From a virus, in IMG/VR virus record IMGVR_UViG_3300050821_023990, positions 1-31,932 of that record: DNA of 31,932 bases; one strand, given 5' to 3'. Positions within the stretch are counted from its first letter, which is position 1. Every line of letters starts with the position of its first letter. Positions 3,329 through 13,636 of the stretch are shown in pieces. The position numbers and the translations under genes were made by a program. The notes under the pieces are model-generated. The model worked only from the letters and a program-made list of their open reading frames with translations, was not told the DNA's origin and did no database searches.

Positions 3329-3579
3329 GTGCCGTCCACGACAAGACGCTTAAGGAGCTGGACGACACAATGGCGCAGCTCGACCGTGCGAACGAAGTCA
3401 TCGACGGCCTGCGGTCGGAGCTGGCGGACATCAGAGCCGTGCTGTCGTCCGATCTGCGTGACGCGGAGCCGCTGTGCTGGGCGGTGGACCGGCTTGTGAC
3501 GCAGCGCCGCTCCCTGCTGGCCCTCGTCGCTGCCTCCCAGCAGGACGGGGATGGCCCCGCACAGGAGACTGGGCGATGA
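3325..3579 (+). CDS. Short coiled-coil protein
   Basis: The protein has 84 residues. Residues 5-40 form a heptad-like coiled coil (KTLKELDDTMAQLDRANEVIDGL). The C-terminus (SQQDGDGPAQETGR) is low-complexity and is encoded by the repeated junction sequence that also carries the ribosome binding site of the next gene. The start is at 3325 in an ATGA overlap. The function is unknown. Confidence 0.62.
   Translation: MSAVHDKTLKELDDTMAQLDRANEVIDGLRSELADIRAVLSSDLRDAEPLCWAVDRLVTQRRSLLALVAASQQDGDGPAQETGR
3564..3579 (+). repeat. Repeated gene-junction 16-mer, copy 1
   Basis: GGAGACTGGGCGATGA occurs identically at 3564-3579 and 3749-3764. Each copy holds a Shine-Dalgarno-like GGAG, the last codons of one gene and the overlapping start of the next. 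Close variants end the genes at 6284 and 10660. Confidence 0.85.
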
Positions 3580-6875: not shown

Positions 6876-7084
6876 CGCTGACGAGGCCGACCCGCGAGAA
6901 CATGCGCCGCGTCGAGACGCTGATGATGGAGGCGGACGCTTGCTACGAGAAGGCGCACGCGGCCGTGGTCGAGGGCTCTTCGGTGGGTGCCCGCAAGTGG
7001 TTCGACGCGGCTGCTGCGGCTCTGCGCGCGGCTCGTCTCGCCGACCCGCATGCGAGATTCGATTTGCAGGCCACGAATGGCTGA
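6872..7084 (+). CDS. Hypothetical 70-residue helical protein
   Basis: ATG 6872 follows AGGAGG (6859-6864) and overlaps the previous stop. The product is one amphipathic helix pair (REEN-like start, then VETLMMEADACYEKAHAAVV and KWFDAAAAALRAARLAD). It ends overlapping ATG 7077. The function is unknown. Confidence 0.6.
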   Translation: MTLTRPTRENMRRVETLMMEADACYEKAHAAVVEGSSVGARKWFDAAAAALRAARLADPHARFDLQATNG

Positions 7085-7748
7085 CCAGGTGCCCGACGGG
7101 TGGACGCCGGCTTCCGACCTCGAAGAGGTGTTCGCGGTGGTCGAGCGGATGGCCCGCGCCGACGAGCGCCGCAAGGTGATCGCGGAGCTGGAATCCGAGG
7201 AGGCAGTCGAACGGCTCGCTGCGCACCGTGCCGAGAACGATGGCTGCTACGAGCCGGGCCGGAGATGGAGCGAGCTTCCCGGCAACGTGCAGGACATGTG
7301 GCGCCAGTCGTCGCGCAACCTGCTCGCCGAAGCACGCTCGACCTTGATCCGCGCCTCCCTCCTGGCCCCCGAAGGGGAGGGCGGCGGCGGTTATGCCAAA
7401 GTTCTTTCGGGCGATCAGGCGGCCAACAAAGCCGGCATAAGGGGCGACGATAGAAAGACGGAATCAATCCATCGCCCCGTGTCGGCAGTCGCAAACTCTC
7501 CGCAAACTTCGGCGTCGTCGCCTTCCTCGGAACCTGCACGGGCGAGCGACGAGCGGACGTTCGAGTTCAGCGTGCACGGCGTGGTTCGTGCGTTCGACCA
7601 TGAGGCAGCAGACGAGCTGATTGGCGCATGGATTGGCCTCGTCGTCGAGCACAGCGGCTCGGTGAGCGTCTGGTCATCGACCGCATGCAAGGGCCTGCTC
7701 TCGAAGCCGAGACGGGGCTACGACCTGCCGACCGAGGAGAACGCATGA
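7077..7748 (+). CDS. Two-module hypothetical protein, 223 residues
   Basis: ATG 7077 overlaps the end of the upstream gene. Module 1 (residues 1-97) is helical (DLEEVFAVVERMARADERRK; LLAEARSTLIRASLLAP). A hairpin-encoded linker EGEGGGG follows. Module 2 begins with an AT-richer, Ser-rich stretch and ends in an alpha/beta segment (TFEFSVHGVVRAFDHEAADE, then VEHSGSVSVWSS). The base-composition change at about 7391-7510 and a TTATGCC/GGCATAA inverted repeat suggest that two sequences of different origin were joined here. The function is unknown. Confidence 0.55.
   Translation: MADQVPDGWTPASDLEEVFAVVERMARADERRKVIAELESEEAVERLAAHRAENDGCYEPGRRWSELPGNVQDMWRQSSRNLLAEARSTLIRASLLAPEGEGGGGYAKVLSGDQAANKAGIRGDDRKTESIHRPVSAVANSPQTSASSPSSEPARASDERTFEFSVHGVVRAFDHEAADELIGAWIGLVVEHSGSVSVWSSTACKGLLSKPRRGYDLPTEENA
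7366..7377. repeat. Intragenic GC hairpin at a module boundary
   Basis: CCCC (7366-7369), loop CGAA, GGGG (7374-7377). It encodes the linker between the two modules of the gene at 7077. It is the weakest member of the hairpin series found down to 12.0 kb. Confidence 0.55.
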
Positions 7749-8179
7749 CCGTCGTTACGACTCAGCGTGGCGAGACGTTTGCCGGCTACAACGAGCTGGA
7801 GGCGATGTGCTGCCCGTCGTGCGCGGTGCTGTACGCCGTGCCAGCCCGGCTCATCGCAAGCGCTCGCAAGCGTGGAAACTGGGAGCGCACCTGGTTCTGC
7901 CCGAACGGGCACGAGCTGGGCTACAACGATCCGCCTGGCGAGTCGGAGGCGTCGAAGCTGAAGCGCCAGCTCAGATGGGCCGAGGATCACGCCGCCAGCC
8001 TGCGAGCCAGCCTCGACCAGTCAGAGGCGAGCCGACGCGCGCAGAAGGCGGCGACGACTCGGCTGAGAAGACGCGTGGCTGCCGGGGTGTGTCCGTGCTG
8101 CAGGCGCACCTTCCAACAGCTCACTCGGCACATGGCTTCGCAGCATTCCGACTTCTCGACCGAGGAGAGAAGCGCATGA
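7745..8179 (+). CDS. Double zinc-finger coiled-coil protein, 144 residues
   Basis: Residues 22-55 carry CCPSC and a later CPNGH, a zinc-ribbon pair. Residues 65-110 form a coiled coil (ASKLKRQLRWAEDHAASLRA, SLDQSEASRRAQKAATT). Residues 114-133 are a C2H2 finger (CPCCRRTFQQLTRHMASQH). The same three-part layout occurs in small phage proteins annotated only as zinc-finger proteins. DNA or RNA binding is plausible. It starts in an ATGA overlap. Confidence 0.7.
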   Translation: MTVVTTQRGETFAGYNELEAMCCPSCAVLYAVPARLIASARKRGNWERTWFCPNGHELGYNDPPGESEASKLKRQLRWAEDHAASLRASLDQSEASRRAQKAATTRLRRRVAAGVCPCCRRTFQQLTRHMASQHSDFSTEERSA

Positions 8180-8568
8180 GCGACGTGCGTCGCTTCATCA
8201 ACCACGACGAGGACCGGATCCAGCATCGCGTCCGGGTCTGCGAGGTCTCGGGCCTCGTCGACTGCGCGAGCAAAGCGCACAAGGCGGATCCATGCGACCT
8301 CGTGACGTTCGAGTTCGGCCGCGACTGGCTGCTGGAGCAGATCCACACCCCGGACGCCGAGGCTGCCACCCCCTCGTCTGTACGTGAACCGAGCGCGCAG
8401 GATGTGATCGACGCGCTGCGGATCGGACTCGCCGCGAACGAGGAGCGCACGGTCAATCTGCTGCATCACCTCCTCGCGCTAGCGCCTGAGACGGACCCGC
8501 ACCGCGGGACCGACGGCCTGGTGGCGCTGCTCTGGAGAGCCCAGGAGGCCACCGATGCCGTCGCCTGA
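8176..8568 (+). CDS. Hypothetical 130-residue two-part protein
   Basis: The N-terminal half is strand-rich with three cysteines (RIQHRVRVCEVSGLVDCASK; DPCDLVTFEFGRDWL). A Pro/Ser linker (TPSSVREPS, about residues 73-81) leads to a helical second half (AQDVIDALRIGLAANEERTV; NLLHHLLALAPETD). It fits the modular style of the neighbouring genes. It overlaps the next start by 14 bases. No function is recognised. Confidence 0.6.
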   Translation: MSDVRRFINHDEDRIQHRVRVCEVSGLVDCASKAHKADPCDLVTFEFGRDWLLEQIHTPDAEAATPSSVREPSAQDVIDALRIGLAANEERTVNLLHHLLALAPETDPHRGTDGLVALLWRAQEATDAVA

Positions 8569-8824
8569 TCCCATGGGCCGCGTACAGCAGCCAGTCGCGG
8601 TGAGAGCCGCGCGGTACTTCGGCTGGCACGACAAGCCGCGCGTATCGGTCCGCGTCAACGATGGCGCTGTAGTGGTCGGCGAGCACGCTGGCCGCAAGCT
8701 GCTGATGGTCTACCACGAGCGCGGTGACAGGCTGAAGGTCGGCAGCGGCACCCATGTCAACCTGACGGAGCGGCAGCGCGTCGCTCTCATCGAAGCACTT
8801 GGAGGCGAGGCCCATGTCGCCTGA
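8555..8824 (+). CDS. Hypothetical 89-residue beta-rich protein
   Basis: ATG 8555 lies inside the end of the previous gene, after GGAGG (8545-8549). The product is mostly strands (RVSVRVNDGAVVVGEHAG; KLLMVYHERGDRLKVGSG) with a terminal helix (TERQRVALIEALGG). The family is not recognised. Confidence 0.58.
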   Translation: MPSPDPMGRVQQPVAVRAARYFGWHDKPRVSVRVNDGAVVVGEHAGRKLLMVYHERGDRLKVGSGTHVNLTERQRVALIEALGGEAHVA

Positions 8825-9674
8825 GCCTGCTCGTGAGGACACGGGGGGCGGGCGCTTCCGCAAGCTGCCCGTCGAGGTCGAGGCGATGCGCTGGGACGGC
8901 AGCGAGCAGGGAATCAACGAGATCGCTGCCTGGATCAAGGGGCACATCTCGTTGGACGACAATGACGGCGAGCCGCTGCTGAGCTGGGTGACGCCCGGCG
9001 ACGACTACAAGGCCGTAAAGGACGTGCAGCTCGTGACGCTGCACGGCTACGTCGGCGTCAGCGAGGGCGATTGGGTCGTCCGTACCGTCAAGGGCGACTT
9101 CTATCCGTGCAACGCGCTCGTCTTCGATGCCACCCACGAGCGCGCCGCCTCCGCGTCTTCGTCCAAGGACGAGGAGGGCGGGCTGGACGACGACGAGCGC
9201 GAGCTGCTGAACACGCTCAAGTCGCAGGACGCTGAGCGCGTCGAGATCGAGGGGGACTACATCGATGCGATGCAGAGACTCGGCTACGAGCTGGTTGTGC
9301 ATAACGAGCGCGACGGTCCGTGCTTCGGCTGCTCGCTCTCGAAGATGTTCGACCAGCTCGCCGCCCCCTCCGTCTCCCAGCAGGGGACGGCAGCATTCAG
9401 AGCGGCGCTCGACGAGTTCTTCCCCGAGGACGAGGTCGACCTGATCGAGCGGCTCGTCGATGAGCATCTCGGCTCCCAGCGGGGGACGGGAGGGGTTCTG
9501 CGCACTCGCGCGTGTCCGACTCACGGGAACCTTCACGTCGCGCCGCCGGGCATCGAGCCAATCACGCACTGTCCAGTGCTCTGCATCGATGAGGAGGAGT
9601 GCAGCGAGCCGCTTGGTCCGATCCGCGATTGGGTGCCCGCCCCTTCCCAGCAGAAGGGCGGCGGGCATGGCTGA
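8814..9674 (+). CDS. PGDYG-type phage protein with extra C-terminal modules
   Basis: ATG 8814 follows GGAGG (8801-8805). Residues 13-110 match the common phage PGDYG domain: FRKLPVEVEAMRWDG, a middle helix (INEIAAWI), VTLHGYVGVSEGDWVVRTVK and GDFYPCNALVFDATHE. Usual family members end about here. This protein continues to 286 residues through three further short modules separated by SVSQQGT, SQRGTGG and a final SQQKGGG, each linker encoded by a GC-rich hairpin. The last module has Cys/His pairs (CPTHG, HCPVLC). The role of the PGDYG domain is not established. Confidence 0.75.
   Translation: MSPEPAREDTGGGRFRKLPVEVEAMRWDGSEQGINEIAAWIKGHISLDDNDGEPLLSWVTPGDDYKAVKDVQLVTLHGYVGVSEGDWVVRTVKGDFYPCNALVFDATHERAASASSSKDEEGGLDDDERELLNTLKSQDAERVEIEGDYIDAMQRLGYELVVHNERDGPCFGCSLSKMFDQLAAPSVSQQGTAAFRAALDEFFPEDEVDLIERLVDEHLGSQRGTGGVLRTRACPTHGNLHVAPPGIEPITHCPVLCIDEEECSEPLGPIRDWVPAPSQQKGGGHG
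9370..9390. repeat. Intragenic hairpin at a module boundary
   Basis: CCGTCTCC (9370-9377) pairs with GGGGACGG (9383-9390), seven Watson-Crick pairs plus one G-T, with loop CAGCA. It encodes the SVSQQGT linker. The same arms recur at 10134-10158. Confidence 0.8.
9473..9492. repeat. Intragenic hairpin at a module boundary
   Basis: CTCCC (9473-9477) pairs with GGGAG (9488-9492) around a 10-nt loop. The string CTCCCAGCGGGGGACGG differs by one base from the copy at 9374-9390. It encodes the SQRGTGG linker. Confidence 0.75.
9635..9666. repeat. Strong hairpin directly before a start codon
   Basis: GCCCGC (9635-9640) plus CCCTTC (9641-9646) pair with GAAGGG (9653-9658) plus GCGGGC (9661-9666), with a 2-nt bulge and loop CCAGCA. 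The next ATG is at 9667, so the purine-rich region ahead of it lies in the stem. It could limit translation of the 48-residue protein. Confidence 0.8.
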
Positions 9675-9813
9675 CGAGCGGTATTGCTGCGCATGCGACG
9701 AGCCAATTGAGGGCGAAGGCGTCGTGTTCTGGGAGGTCGATGGCGAGTGGATGTGCGACCCGTGCCACGAGTCCCTCAAGCCAGGAGGCGAGCGTCTTGT
9801 CGCCGATGCCTGA
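9667..9813 (+). CDS. 48-residue zinc-finger miniprotein
   Basis: The product MADERYCCACDEPI...WMCDPCHESL carries CxxC and CxxC knuckles about 24 residues apart, a minimal zinc ribbon or LIM-like finger. It starts at ATG 9667 inside the end of the previous gene and immediately after a strong hairpin. AGGAGGCGAG near its end (9782-9791) is the likely ribosome binding site of the next gene. Confidence 0.62.
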   Translation: MADERYCCACDEPIEGEGVVFWEVDGEWMCDPCHESLKPGGERLVADA

Positions 9814-10660
9814 TTACGAACACGACGTCTACGCCGATCCGGTGGAGGGAGGTTGGCGCTGGTACGCGCCCACGTGCCGGACGTGCGGCTGGCGTGGCGA
9901 CGTTGTGGAGACGAAGGAGATGGCGCAGCGCGACGCGAAGCAGCATCGTGACACGCAGCCCGCCCCCGTCCTCCAGGAGGAGACGGGGACGCGGGAGCTG
10001 GTGGCGCGTGCGATCGCCACGGCAGACGACTGCGGCTGGGCGTTCGACGACTTCGAGGGAGATGATGAACTCCTCGCGAAGGCCGAGTCGAACCGGGCGC
10101 ACTACATCGTGCTCGCGGATGCAGTTCTCGCCGCCGTCTCCCTGCCTTCAGGGGACGGGGAGCGGGGCGTGCTGCGTGATGCGGCGGAGAACGCCGTACA
10201 AGCGTGCTTGGGCCTGCTGCCGATCAGCGGTTCGGAGGAGTCGGGCTACCGCGTGGGCGAGCGCATCCAGCTCAAGGTGCTCGCGAACGAGCACGAGTGG
10301 GCGGACGCCGCGCAGGCAATCTGCGACCTGCACCGGGTCGCGAGTGCCTCAGGCGCCGCCGAGCGCTTCGCGGCCGGCGACGGTCAGCTCGACGAAGTAG
10401 ATGCCGGGCTGCCATTCGCGGTCTCCGGGGATCGCGAGCCCGACGTCGACCATCGCAGCGAGCCGGTCGCCGGGGATGCACTCACCGCGCCCGTGCTCGC
10501 GACGGAAGGCTCTGAAGCGCGTCTCGCCAGTGACGCGGCTTGTGATGCAGACGGCGAGGTCGTCGCGGATCGCTTCGAGGGCGGATCGGTCCACCGCCGT
10601 AGTCTCGCGGACGAAGGCAAGCCGGCGGCCGCCTCTCCTTCAGGGGAGACGGGCGGATGA
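9806..10660 (+). CDS. Modular accessory protein; last third probably antisense to a real gene
   Basis: ATG 9806 overlaps the previous stop. Module 1 (residues 1-52) has a CRTCGWRG knuckle. The hairpin-encoded linker LQEETGT leads to module 2 (RELVARAIATADDCGW...ADAVLAAV), a helical unit seen as a recurrent domain in phage proteins. SLPSGDGERG leads to module 3 (VLRDAAENAVQACLGLLP...EWADAAQAICDLH). After about residue 180 the reading runs antisense to a better-looking reverse gene (10349-10594), with poorer third-position GC and low complexity, up to the ATGA at 10657. The true C-terminus may therefore be decayed or rearranged. The function is unknown. Confidence 0.5.
   Translation: MPDYEHDVYADPVEGGWRWYAPTCRTCGWRGDVVETKEMAQRDAKQHRDTQPAPVLQEETGTRELVARAIATADDCGWAFDDFEGDDELLAKAESNRAHYIVLADAVLAAVSLPSGDGERGVLRDAAENAVQACLGLLPISGSEESGYRVGERIQLKVLANEHEWADAAQAICDLHRVASASGAAERFAAGDGQLDEVDAGLPFAVSGDREPDVDHRSEPVAGDALTAPVLATEGSEARLASDAACDADGEVVADRFEGGSVHRRSLADEGKPAAASPSGETGG
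9964..9988. repeat. Intragenic hairpin at a module boundary
   Basis: CCCCGTC (9964-9970) pairs perfectly with GACGGGG (9982-9988), enclosing CTCCAGGAGGA. It encodes the VLQEETGT linker between modules 1 and 2. The loop side holds AGGAGG, a Shine-Dalgarno-like string now in the middle of a gene. Confidence 0.8.
10134..10158. repeat. Intragenic hairpin at a module boundary
   Basis: CCGTCTCC (10134-10141) pairs with GGGGACGG (10151-10158), identical arms to the hairpin at 9370-9390, with loop CTGCCTTCA. It encodes SLPSGDGERG between modules 2 and 3. Confidence 0.8.
10349..10594 (-). CDS. Reverse-strand 81-residue protein, winged-helix-like
   Basis: Read in reverse from GTG 10594, this gives a globular-looking product: SALEAIRDDLAVCITSRVTG, FRREHGRGECIPGDRLAAMVD, VGLAIPGDREWQPGIYF and a C-terminal ELTVAGREALGGA of the kind that ends many small winged-helix proteins. 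Third codon positions are much richer in G/C in this reading than in the forward one across the same bases. It has no clear ribosome binding site; GAGACT lies 6 nt upstream of the start. It sits between hairpins at 10134-10158 and 10629-10656. The function is unknown. Confidence 0.5.
   Translation of the reverse strand: MDRSALEAIRDDLAVCITSRVTGETRFRAFRREHGRGECIPGDRLAAMVDVGLAIPGDREWQPGIYFVELTVAGREALGGA
10629..10656. repeat. Hairpin directly before a start codon
   Basis: CCGCC-TCTCC (10629-10638) pairs with GGAGA (10645-10649) and GGCGG (10652-10656), loop TTCAGG, with a two-base bulge. The Shine-Dalgarno-like GGGGAGA lies in the stem and ATG 10657 follows at once. Confidence 0.75.
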
Positions 10661-11100
10661 CGTGCGCGCACGAGAACTTCGAGGCGGCCGTGGACGTGAC
10701 GCGCCTGCACGAGCACGAGGGTGCGGACTCGCCCCACGCCTTCGTCGCCGACGTGCGCGTTTGGTGCAGAGCGTGCCGTGCGCCGCTCGGCTTCAAGGGC
10801 CTCTCGGCTGGCGTGAGCTTCGACCAGCCGATGTGCTCGCCGGACGCACTGGAGGCACGGCTGCCGTTGATGTCGCCGTCGGAACTGTCGTTGGTCGGGC
10901 CGCTGCCGGCGGTTCCCCTCGCCGCCCCGCCCGCAGGGGAGACAGGGGACGGGCGGGGGCTGCGTGAGTGGACGCTGTGGACGACCGACGGTCTGTGGCG
11001 GGTCGTCTCTGACGAGGAGCCGGAGCCCACGAGCGTCTACGAGCTGATCCGCGTCCGCGAGATCCCGTCCGGGGGAACCGACGACGATGCGGTTTCGTAG
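10657..11100 (+). CDS. Conserved phage protein with a CxxC knuckle, 147 residues
   Basis: The N-terminal 85 residues follow a pattern I recognise from many phage hypothetical proteins: CAHENFEAAVDVTRL, a FVADVRVWCRACRAPLGFKGL block with CxxC, then PMCSPDALEARLPLMSPSE. Family members are small and have no assigned function. A hairpin-encoded linker (PPAGETGDGRG, about residues 90-100) joins an extra strand-rich module (LREWTLWTTDGLWRVVSDEE; SVYELIRVREIPS). Translation may be limited by the hairpin just upstream. Confidence 0.7.
   Translation: MTCAHENFEAAVDVTRLHEHEGADSPHAFVADVRVWCRACRAPLGFKGLSAGVSFDQPMCSPDALEARLPLMSPSELSLVGPLPAVPLAAPPAGETGDGRGLREWTLWTTDGLWRVVSDEEPEPTSVYELIRVREIPSGGTDDDAVS
10925..10958. 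repeat. Strong intragenic hairpin at a module boundary
   Basis: CCCCGCCCG (10925-10933) pairs perfectly over 9 bp with CGGGCGGGG (10950-10958), with a 16-nt purine-rich loop containing GGGGAGA. It encodes PPAGETGDGRG in the 10657 gene. Confidence 0.8.
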
Positions 11101-11530
11101 GCGTCGCCGCGAGCTGGCGAGACGCCCGGCGCTGGAGATCATGCGCGAGGCGACCGCGCTCCGGAACGAGATGCGGATCACGTCGAACGTCCCGGTGAGC
11201 GCGCCGCCGGCAGCTTCTAGGCCCGCGTGGCTCCGGGTTTCAGTGTCGGTCTTGCTCGCCTTCGGCGGCGAGGAACAGTTCGACCAGGCTGATCTGGAGC
11301 GCGTCGGCGATTCGTTGGAGCGTCGGCAGCGTCGGGGTGTGTTGGCCGGTTTCGATGGCTTGGAGGTGGAGGCTGAGGCCGGCTTGTTCGCAGAGTCGGC
11401 GTTGGCTCAGTCTGCGTGTTTGGCGGCAGCGCCGGATTGCTCGGCCGAGCGCGATCTCGATCGGTGGCCCGGTTGGCACCATCGACGGCACCGTACCGGT
11501 TTTCAGGGGGTCGGCCATGCCGAGCACTGA
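11087..11530 (+). CDS. Doubtful small basic protein, 3' end antisense to the XRE gene
   Basis: ATG 11087 lies inside the end of the previous gene. The first 45 residues are basic and helical (RFRRRRRELARRPALEIMREA; TALRNEMRITS) and may be real. From about base 11237 the frame is open only because it runs antisense to the XRE-type gene, and the remaining residues have no independent support. The gene may have been truncated when the reverse gene was acquired. Confidence 0.3.
   Translation: MRFRRRRRELARRPALEIMREATALRNEMRITSNVPVSAPPAASRPAWLRVSVSVLLAFGGEEQFDQADLERVGDSLERRQRRGVLAGFDGLEVEAEAGLFAESALAQSACLAAAPDCSAERDLDRWPGWHHRRHRTGFQGVGHAEH
11240..11518 (-). CDS. XRE-family helix-turn-helix regulator, reverse strand
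   Basis: Read in reverse from ATG 11518 (92 residues; a second ATG at 11482 is possible). Residues 24-85 form a classic XRE/Cro-C1 HTH domain: IEIALGRAIRRCRQTRRLSQ, RRLCEQAGLSLHLQAIETGQ, HTPTLPTLQRIADALQISLV, ELFLAAEGE. A regulator on the opposite strand is a typical moron or immunity-type arrangement. Its start codon overlaps the ATG of the forward gene at 11517 (shared CATG). Two 11-bp direct repeats lie just upstream and could be its operators. What it regulates cannot be told from the sequence. Confidence 0.85.
   Translation of the reverse strand: MADPLKTGTVPSMVPTGPPIEIALGRAIRRCRQTRRLSQRRLCEQAGLSLHLQAIETGQHTPTLPTLQRIADALQISLVELFLAAEGEQDRH
11486..11498. promoter_or_regulatory. Near-palindrome upstream of the alternative XRE start
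   Basis: CGGCAC-C-GTACCG is a near-perfect inverted repeat (one mismatch per arm). It lies just upstream of the alternative XRE start at 11482 (reverse strand). An operator is possible but weakly supported. Confidence 0.25.
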
Positions 11531-11867
11531 GCGGGAGCGGCCGGGCACTGAGCGGATGCGAAGCGCGGAGCGCCGGGGACGGATCCGGCGTGCGCTGATC
11601 GCCGCCTACGAGCGCGGTACGGCTGGCGACGAACGCTGGAATGCGACACCCGCCGTGGACGCGCTCGAAGACGAGCTGTTCCACCCCGCCCTCGTGTCCC
11701 CCGAGCCTGGGGACGGGGACGAGCTGCGGGAGCTGCTGACCGGCGCCGCCCGCCACCTGCGCAACCTGCCAGGCACGAGAGAGAGCGATGACATCCGGTG
11801 GGCTGAGCGGCTGGAGCGCCGCGCCGCCCGCCTGTCCTCCAGAGAGCAGGAGGTCGCCGATGGCTGA
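11517..11867 (+). CDS. Two-module hypothetical protein, 116 residues
   Basis: ATG 11517 shares CATG with the start of the divergent XRE gene. Module 1 is basic and helical (RMRSAERRGRIRRALIAAYE) followed by AVDALEDELFHPAL. The hairpin-encoded linker SPEPGDGDE leads to a helical second module (LRELLTGAARHLRNLPG; RWAERLERRAARLSSREQE). It overlaps the next gene by eight bases. The function is unknown. Confidence 0.58.
   Translation: MPSTERERPGTERMRSAERRGRIRRALIAAYERGTAGDERWNATPAVDALEDELFHPALVSPEPGDGDELRELLTGAARHLRNLPGTRESDDIRWAERLERRAARLSSREQEVADG
11524..11555 (+). repeat. Two 11-bp direct repeats upstream of the XRE gene
   Basis: GCACTGAGCGG occurs at 11524-11534 and 11545-11555, exactly 21 bp apart (two helical turns). 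They lie 6 and 27 bp upstream of the XRE start codon, where autoregulatory operators are expected, and inside the 5' end of the forward gene at 11517. Confidence 0.6.
11696..11714. repeat. Intragenic hairpin at a module boundary
   Basis: GTCCCC (11696-11701) pairs with GGGGAC (11709-11714), loop CGAGCCT. It encodes the SPEPGDGDE linker of the 11517 gene. Confidence 0.7.
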
Positions 11868-12021
11868 TCGCTGCCCTCATTGCGGCGGGTCGGGGCTGCT
11901 CCAATGGCATGTTGACGGCGCGCCGTTCGGACGGCCGCACCGTTGCCAGTTCTGCAACGGAACAGGCCGCGATGACTGGCGACCCCCGTCCTCCCCACAG
12001 ACGGAGGACGCGGATGCGTAG
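11860..12021 (+). CDS. 53-residue DnaJ-type zinc-finger miniprotein
   Basis: ATG 11860 overlaps the previous gene, and CAGGAGG (11847-11853) is its ribosome binding site. The product contains CPHCGGSG and CQFCNGTG, two repeats of the CxxCxGxG motif of DnaJ zinc domains, about 25 residues apart. Such miniproteins occur in phages and may act as RNA- or protein-binding knuckles. The tail (SPQTEDADA) is encoded by a hairpin. Confidence 0.68.
   Translation: MADRCPHCGGSGLLQWHVDGAPFGRPHRCQFCNGTGRDDWRPPSSPQTEDADA
11987..12010. repeat. Perfect 8-bp hairpin at the end of a gene
   Basis: CGTCCTCC (11987-11994) pairs perfectly with GGAGGACG (12003-12010), loop CCACAGAC. It lies in the last codons of the 11860 gene. 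A two-codon ATGCGTAG follows at 12014. It may act as a weak terminator between this forward gene and the convergent reverse gene at 12026. Confidence 0.75.
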
Positions 12022-12025
12022 CCGT

Positions 12026-12229
12026 TCAGGCGACGAGCTCCAGCAGCCGGCCGAGTCGGGCTCGCTCGTGCGCGGTCAGCTCCCGGCTGCTGCCGGCACC
12101 GTCGTGGCTGTAGACGGCGTCCAGTGCCCGTGTGGGCTGTGCGGCGAGCGCCTCGGCGACCTGTTCGATGCTGCCGGTGAACAGCACGCACCACGGCCTG
12201 TCGGGATCGCAGATCATGAACGTCTGCAT
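12026..12229 (-). CDS. Reverse-strand 67-residue protein
   Basis: Read in reverse from ATG 12229, with GAGG just upstream. The product looks like a compact alpha/beta domain: MQTFMICDPDRPWCVLFTGS, IEQVAEALAAQPTRALDAVY, then HDGAGSSRELTAHERARLGR. The forward strand is merely open here and gives a low-complexity product. The gene is convergent with 11860 and divergent from rtcB. The family is not recognised. The remaining bases to 12328 hold its 5' region and the leader of rtcB. Confidence 0.6.
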   Translation of the reverse strand: MQTFMICDPDRPWCVLFTGSIEQVAEALAAQPTRALDAVYSHDGAGSSRELTAHERARLGRLLELVA

Positions 12230-12328
12230 GCCTCACAGCATCTCGCCGGGGTCTACAAGCAGAAGGCGGAGTGCGCGCCTTCCTTCGCCGGGGGAGCAGG
12301 GATGAGACCTCCAACCCAAGGAGACCGA

Positions 12329-13636
12329 ATGATCGAGGTCCGTGGCGACGTGGATGTACGCGCAGTCGAGCAGCTCCAGCGGTGCGCCGAAGCCGGAGAC
12401 GCGGTCGCTGCCGTGATGTGCGCGGATGGCCACGTCGGCTACTCGCAGCCGATCGGCGGGGCCATTGCGTACCGCGACAAGATCAGCCCATCGGGTGTCG
12501 GCTACGACATCGGTTGTGGGAACAAGGCGGTGCAGACGAGGGTGCTCGCTGCCGATGTCGAGCTGCCGGCGATCATGGACGAGATCGTCCGTCGGATCAG
12601 CTTCGGTATGGGCCGTGTGAACGACGAGCCGATCGACCATCCGGTCCTCGACGCGATCCGCGATGCCGACTTCGCACCGCAACGCGGCCTTCGCGATCTC
12701 GCCGCGAAGCAGCTCGGCACTGTCGGAGCCGGCAATCACTACGTCGACCTGTTCCGCGACGACGACGGCTGGCTGTGGATCGGCGTGCATTTCGGCTCGC
12801 GCGGCTTCGGTCACAAGACGGCGTCCGGCTTCCTCGCCGTCGCTGAGGGCAAGCGCTTCGGCGAGCACGCCACGGAGGGCGAGATGGACTCGCCGCCGAT
12901 CCTGTTCGACACCTCCTCGGACCTCGGGCAGGCGTACATCGCGGCGATGACGCTCGCGGGTGACTACGCCTACGCCGGCCGCGACGTCGTGGTCGACAAG
13001 GTGCTGGAGATCCTCGGCGCGACGAGCACCTACGAGGTCCACAATCACCACAACTTCGCGTGGCGCGAGACGCATTTCGGCGAGGACATGTGGGTGATCC
13101 GCAAGGGCTGCACCCCGGCGATGCCGGGTCAGCAGGGCTTCGTCGGCGCGACGATGGGCGAGCCATCGGTGATCCTCGAAGGCATCGAGTCGGACGCCTC
13201 CGCGTCGCTGCTCTACTCGACGGTCCACGGCGCCGGCCGCGTCATGTCGCGCACGCAGGCTGCTGGCAAGTCCAAGCGCCGGAAGGTGTGGGAATGTAGC
13301 GAGCGCGACTGCGCGTACCGCGCCCCGCTCGACCGCCAACGCGAGGGCGGTGGCCCGATCCCGTGCCCGGAGCACCAGGGTATCCGCAAGATGCAGAAGC
13401 GGTGGCTGACCGAAAAGGTCCGCGACGGCGAGATCGACTGGACGGCGACGCTCGCTGACCTGGCCGCGGCCGGCATCGAGCTGCGCGGCGGCGCCGCTGA
13501 TGAGGCCCCTGGCGCCTACAAGCGCCTCGACGTCGTGCTCGATCACCACGCAGACACGATCCGCGTCCTTCACCGTCTTCACCCGATTGGGGTCGCGATG
13601 GCCGGGCCCGACACCTACGACCCCTTCAAGGACTGA
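12329..13636 (+). CDS. rtcB: RtcB-type RNA ligase
   Basis: RtcB joins RNA 2',3'-cyclic-phosphate or 3'-phosphate ends to 5'-OH ends using GTP and Mn2+. The start at 12329 follows AAGGAGA. Of 435 residues, the family motifs are present in order: GHVGYSQPIGG, GYDIGCG (D60, C63), GAGNHY (H137), GVHFGSRGFG (H154), NHHNF (H240/H241) and HGAGRVMSR with H300 as the expected guanylylated histidine. An insertion after this motif carries CSERDC and CPEH, a probable zinc knuckle not typical of the E. coli enzyme. In a phage, RtcB can repair tRNAs cut by host anticodon nucleases; its substrate here is inferred. Confidence 0.93.
   Translation: MIEVRGDVDVRAVEQLQRCAEAGDAVAAVMCADGHVGYSQPIGGAIAYRDKISPSGVGYDIGCGNKAVQTRVLAADVELPAIMDEIVRRISFGMGRVNDEPIDHPVLDAIRDADFAPQRGLRDLAAKQLGTVGAGNHYVDLFRDDDGWLWIGVHFGSRGFGHKTASGFLAVAEGKRFGEHATEGEMDSPPILFDTSSDLGQAYIAAMTLAGDYAYAGRDVVVDKVLEILGATSTYEVHNHHNFAWRETHFGEDMWVIRKGCTPAMPGQQGFVGATMGEPSVILEGIESDASASLLYSTVHGAGRVMSRTQAAGKSKRRKVWECSERDCAYRAPLDRQREGGGPIPCPEHQGIRKMQKRWLTEKVRDGEIDWTATLADLAAAGIELRGGAADEAPGAYKRLDVVLDHHADTIRVLHRLHPIGVAMAGPDTYDPFKD

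Follow-up and report, generated by a model that had tools for sequence, protein, structure and literature searches.

Six in-frame linkers, perhaps seven, in four neighbouring accessory genes of a phage share more DNA sequence than their peptides require, and we put at about 45% the probability that they descend from a common junction sequence which was copied within this stretch while protein modules were being joined. The linkers are confined to one block of genes, use unusual codons and, in two of the genes, lie at or near the end of a domain that exists elsewhere as a stand-alone protein. The window, meaning the whole 31,932-nt stretch that was analysed, is an IMG/VR virus record (IMGVR_UViG_3300050821_023990) of 31.9 kb and ~68% GC, in which the large terminase, portal and major head protein lie at 17.7-26.4 kb and the region from 1 to 12 kb holds small, tightly packed accessory genes. 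All of the linker results come from this single genome.

Four kinds of site among the ten listed

A first-pass annotation of this DNA had described ten sites as one family of hairpins. The sequences that it quoted are present at the positions given, with CCGTCTCC..GGGGACGG at 9370 and 10134 and CTCCCAGC(A/G)GGGGACGG at 9374 and 9473, but the sites fall into four classes and have no hairpin in common. Six of them encode linkers inside genes, as had been proposed (9370, 9473, 9964, 10134, 10925 and 11696), whereas 9635, 10629 and 11987 do not and 7366 is doubtful.

Two of the six linkers lie in frame in a plus-strand accessory gene (8814..9674) that consists of a stand-alone-type N-domain (phrog_419/1810) and modules of no known family. 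The linker at 9351..9402 (DQLAAPSVSQQGTAAFR) has wording beyond the codon null, carries the CTCGCCGCC..GGGGACGG pattern and folds with a p value of 0.126; that at 9459..9503 (DEHLGSQRGTGGVLR) shows no unusual fold. The two form a direct repeat (9371/9470) spaced by 99 nt with a short module in between, and local direct repeats of this kind are within chance expectation (3 observed, against a mean of 1 and a maximum of 3). A candidate seventh linker in the same gene (9141..9191, plus strand, RAASASSSKDEEGGLDD; fold p 0.10) was absent from the original list though comparable to the listed ones; it lies at the end of the conserved N-domain and was picked by peptide composition in the blind test described below. 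The next accessory ORF, 9806..10660 on the plus strand, bears a coding signal as far as ~10340, the remainder being antisense to a minus-strand gene (10349-10594; an 81-aa ORF ending in GREALGGA, with coding signal of its own that covers the 3' third), and the ORF as drawn may be over-long. Its two in-frame linkers, both with the shared wording, are at 9953..10001 (TQPAPVLQEETGTREL), after a zinc-ribbon-like N-domain and with the strongest fold of all against the synonymous null (z -3.3), and at 10121..10175 (AVLAAVSLPSGDGERGVL), with a fold z of -2.3 and the CTCGCCGCC..GGGGACGG pattern. The remaining two are in frame at 10912..10970 (VPLAAPPAGETGDGRGLRE) in the plus-strand gene 10657..11100, which encodes a conserved Cys-containing N-domain and a module of no known family, and at 11682..11730 (HPALVSPEPGDGDELR, with the shared wording) in the plus-strand accessory gene 11517..11867. 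The modules named for the linker-bearing genes are FRAALDEFFPEDEVDLIERLVDEHL, LREWTLWTTDGLWRVV and VLRDAAENAVQACLGLL.

The doubtful site, 7350..7394 on the plus strand (RASLLAPEGEGGGGY), aligns with that at 11696, folds at chance level and is surrounded by weak coding signal. In the plus-strand ORF around it (6987-7748), the coding signal drops at 7340-7510, possibly reflecting an insertion between two former genes. Site 9635 (9627..9672, plus strand) is the end of gene 8814-9674 together with the ribosome site of gene 9667-9813, and places a hairpin at the ATG. A six-frame codon-usage plot revealed minus-strand coding at ~10349-10594 and ~12014-12240; the corresponding genes had been overlooked in the first-pass annotation, and sites 10629 and 11987 are therefore intergenic, one divergent and the other convergent. 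The former (10613..10660, plus strand) separates the minus-strand gene 10349-10594 from gene 10657, contains the ribosome site AGGGGAGACGGGCGGATGA and folds at chance level. The latter (11987..12010) is a perfect 8-bp stem, with a z of -3.6 against dinucleotide shuffles, at the convergent ends of genes 11860-12021 (plus) and 12026-12229 (minus; a small gene with coding signal). As an intrinsic terminator it has the stem only, with no T run after the GC stem, and it is possibly a two-way terminator of a kind that does without the T run.

The linkers share DNA sequence beyond what their peptides require

When the six linkers were compared with codon-resampled versions encoding the same proteins, the DNA that they have in common gave a z of 7.5, against a mean of 1.1 (sd 1.2, maximum 4.9) for 60 sets of random stretches. 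Because the sites had originally been picked in part by their wording, the comparison was repeated blind, on windows chosen by peptide composition only as the richest in Gly, Pro, Ser, Thr and Gln. Applied to the 8.8-11.9 kb block, this rule recovered 9141 and all but one of the six linkers; this blind set of six gave a z of 5.9, a value reached in none of 400 synonymous resamplings (z 5.2-5.9 for picks of five to seven). The same rule with six picks found no excess in other accessory genes (z -2.5) or in the structural genes (z -0.8); the rtcB control was read in the right frame in this blind wording test and in the wrong frame in the site-wise fold, codon-plot, block-fold and gene-tail tests. 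Thus, the earlier claim that several sites share wording holds beyond what the protein requires, limited to the six linkers.

The combination CTCGCCGCC-N12..20-GGGGACGG, which like some other patterns was picked after the sites had been seen, occurs exactly three times in the window, always on the plus strand and each time in a different gene, where 0.00 occurrences were expected. Profiles built with one linker left out placed the omitted linker at ranks 1, 3, 4, 5 and 9 among 91-179 matches on both strands, one of the six failing at rank 103. Pairwise similarity is short (~15-25 nt at 75-85%), does not stand out in a self-comparison of the whole window, and reaches the flanking words CTCGCCGCC and CTGCGTGA. 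Parts of the common wording fall in different codon phases from one linker to another, which fits DNA copies with insertions and deletions.

The linkers are also distinctive in codon use. Glycine is encoded by GGG at 12 of 15 positions in the linkers, as compared with 26 of 150 in the rest (p 1.3e-6), and TCC, CCC and GCC are favoured for serine, proline and alanine. Each is laid out as a pyrimidine run (CTCGCCGCC..TCTCC) and then a purine run (CAGGGGACGGGG), with a Leu-Arg codon pair (CTGCGn) after the purine run in most copies, and the encoded peptide passes from Ala/Pro/Ser to Gly/Asp/Glu/Thr and is flexible.

Hairpins are not the defining feature

Hairpins, which had been put forward as the hallmark of the family, proved to be close to background. 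Between 7.0 and 12.3 kb there are two perfect stems of at least 8 pairs, against 1.75 in shuffles. At -18 kcal/mol there are 35 strong local folds, slightly more than in any of 40 codon shuffles (mean 25, highest count 31), and at -24 kcal/mol there are 4, as opposed to 2.5 in codon shuffles. Since hairpins as a class barely exceed the codon-shuffled controls, the check that the first-pass annotation had itself set, and fold shifts of comparable size occur in other gene blocks of the phage, these counts are weak evidence for a hairpin family; scans for perfect palindromes and minimum free energy were for the same reason rejected as proof of one. Among the listed sites, only 9964 (0/500) and 10134 (0.022), and marginally 9635 (0.046), fold unusually well when compared with synonymous recodings of the same protein. 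When nine sites were aligned, the covariation term came to +0.42, so there is no conserved consensus hairpin. The hairpins appear to be mostly a by-product of the linker wording, their potential arising from the placement of a pyrimidine run ahead of a purine run. The only G-quadruplex-like motif on the plus strand of the window lies at 10936-10959, inside the 10925 linker; being single, it is not a feature of the linker family.

Two linkers adjoin the ends of stand-alone domains

The proposal that the proteins change character at the linkers was borne out for genes 8814 and 10657, in which the homology to stand-alone proteins gives out at a linker or just ahead of it. In Gordonia, Microbacterium and Arthrobacter phages the N-domain of gene 8814 occurs as a protein by itself; it ends at residue ~111, adjoining the candidate linker at 9141-9191. 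For gene 10657, the N-domain corresponds to the whole of a short protein of ~71-107 residues in nine homologues (from Streptomyces phage OnionKnight, Pseudomonas phage KT1 and seven viral contigs), all nine of which are missing the C-terminal module, and the homology stops just before the linker at 10918-10966. A structure prediction based on an eight-sequence alignment shows strands to residue 71, a segment with pLDDT below 50 at residues 84-98 that corresponds to the linker and, beyond residue 98, additional strands predicted less confidently; the 10925 linker is thus predicted to be disordered between two parts with strands. For gene 9806 the single-sequence prediction was poor (pLDDT 46); residues 10-50 are the one stretch of fair confidence, and they stop at the 9964 linker, where the model would place, with low confidence, a break after a folded N-domain.

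Searches for relatives found no homologue of the downstream modules in IMG/VR, INPHARED, PLSDB or ~400 genomes of one phylum, the two genome searches having covered the phylum to which a Thermoleophilia and a Nocardioides genome belong. None of the relatives examined by TerL has the accessory genes, no relative sharing the same linkers was found, and no uninterrupted homologue spanning a linker was seen, the homologues of two N-domains simply ending there. Two genomes seemed to contain homologues of gene 9806, but these were rejected on inspection as composition artefacts. Scans of IMG/VR and 396 genomes with CCGTCTCC..GGGGACGG and CTCGCCGCC..GGGGACGG returned scattered, low-rate matches that look like chance and were set aside.

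Origin of the linkers

If the linkers descend from one junction sequence, that sequence would have been duplicated from gene to gene among adjacent accessory genes, most likely through illegitimate recombination or recombination at short homologies, as phage genes that had stood alone gained extra C-terminal modules, and it would now be read as a flexible linker between protein modules. A related origin had been suggested earlier, namely that each linker is an old gene border, a former gene end plus the ribosome site of the next gene, joined in frame once the stop and start codons had been lost. Taken as an independent explanation for every linker, this is unlikely. A codon model of gene tails, trained on the phage's own tails with these linkers left out and scored by the best window per site, does give five of the six linkers a place among the highest-scoring 0.02-2.2% of interior windows (9964 is at 10%), but many true tails receive poor scores from it as well. 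The linkers are similar in kind to real tails, for example LVAASQQDGDGPAQETGR, IAAVLAGKEGETA and LVEPQGEDGR, each followed by its stop, and an in-frame GTG follows GGGGAGCGGGGC at 10169, yet a start codon at the right place is absent from most linkers. The genes ending at 3579, 3764, 6284 and 10660 do, as had been noted, have a purine-rich Shine-Dalgarno sequence and an overlapping ATGA; their supposed link to the linkers, GGGGACGG, is not ribosome-site wording, however, the matrix derived from native starts being CCAGGAGAAA, which does not describe it and has strong matches among linkers only at 9973 and 9170. Moreover, three gene-end sites that were tested have no excess wording in common (z 0.25). 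The conversion of gene ends into linkers thus draws on the tail-model ranks and on the domain ends in two genes and is no more than plausible, since the motif that the linkers have in common differs from the phage's own Shine-Dalgarno sequence. With the tail model and the like tails on one side and the Shine-Dalgarno and gene-end wording on the other, copying of a junction sequence is the best supported account, and that sequence may itself have come from a gene end.

A local pyrimidine-purine layout favoured by selection could look like common descent. Convergence of this sort at domain boundaries, acting on RNA or DNA, for instance through an mRNA hairpin or GGG codons that slow translation, would account for the strong codon shift and for the somewhat better than synonymous folding of the blind-picked linkers here (Stouffer -2.3) and not elsewhere (0.55, 0.26). 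We nevertheless think it rather unlikely, given that a conserved consensus structure is absent, half of the sites fold at chance level and the similarity extends into the flanking words. An in-frame insertion of a small mobile palindromic element, of the Rickettsia palindromic element kind, is improbable: the linkers are repeated, in frame, hairpin-prone and present in several genes, but measure only ~30-60 nt as opposed to ~150 bp, show no defined ends, target duplication or consensus palindrome, and are confined to one 2.4-kb stretch, the pattern occurring elsewhere only scattered and at a low rate. Chance and composition, whereby disordered linkers in a 68% GC genome would look alike, agree with the near-background hairpin counts and repeat scores, but are largely refuted by the blind linker test: the wording exceeds both codon-resampled and blind controls, and the same rule yields nothing elsewhere in the phage, making this account very improbable.

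Among three known systems, the linkers most resemble the short conserved boundary sequences at phage mosaic junctions, which border exchangeable modules and have been proposed to guide recombination (PMC3029335), and they fail the defining features of the other two. Here too a similar short sequence is found at module borders (in two genes), but it lies inside open genes, encodes a linker and is known from one genome. The SAS and ESAS repeats of Cluster K mycobacteriophages (13 and 17 bp) are likewise phage-specific, and about half have an imperfect inverted repeat, a tendency seen here as well; they are, however, well conserved and located at translation starts (PMC3203893), whereas the six linkers are looser, internal to coding frames rather than upstream of starts, and share a motif other than the phage's ribosome-binding motif. 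Rickettsia palindromic elements are ~150-bp palindromic in-frame insertions (PMC10969869); the linkers match them as repeats read in frame within unrelated genes and differ in their length of 30-60 nt and in having no family-wide palindromic consensus.

To our knowledge, most phage mosaic joints have no recognisable sequence, and linkers of neighbouring proteins with common DNA wording would be a concrete footprint of short-module joining in accessory genes. Synonymous resampling of blind-picked linkers is a simple test that can be used on any phage. More speculatively, and with considerable doubt, the linkers might represent a phage-specific DNA seam of 30-60 nt, compatible with more than one frame, at which accessory modules can be recombined within genes; gene-border recombination sites would then become protein linkers, harmless each time.

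Neighbouring genes

Upstream of the linker block, gene 7745-8179 (plus) encodes a protein resembling a zinc finger (phrog_33336), 55 relatives of which occur in viral contigs; the neighbourhoods of these relatives contain no kin of the linkers or linker modules. Downstream lies an RtcB-type RNA ligase gene of the phage accessory region (12014-13636, plus), the true start of which is uncertain because the minus-strand gene overlaps its N-terminal extension. Within the block, a Cro/C1-type helix-turn-helix regulator is encoded on the minus strand at 11240-11518 (HTH_31, 1.5e-9; also HTH_3), and the plus-strand ORF overlying it (11087-11530) is probably spurious beyond ~11200.
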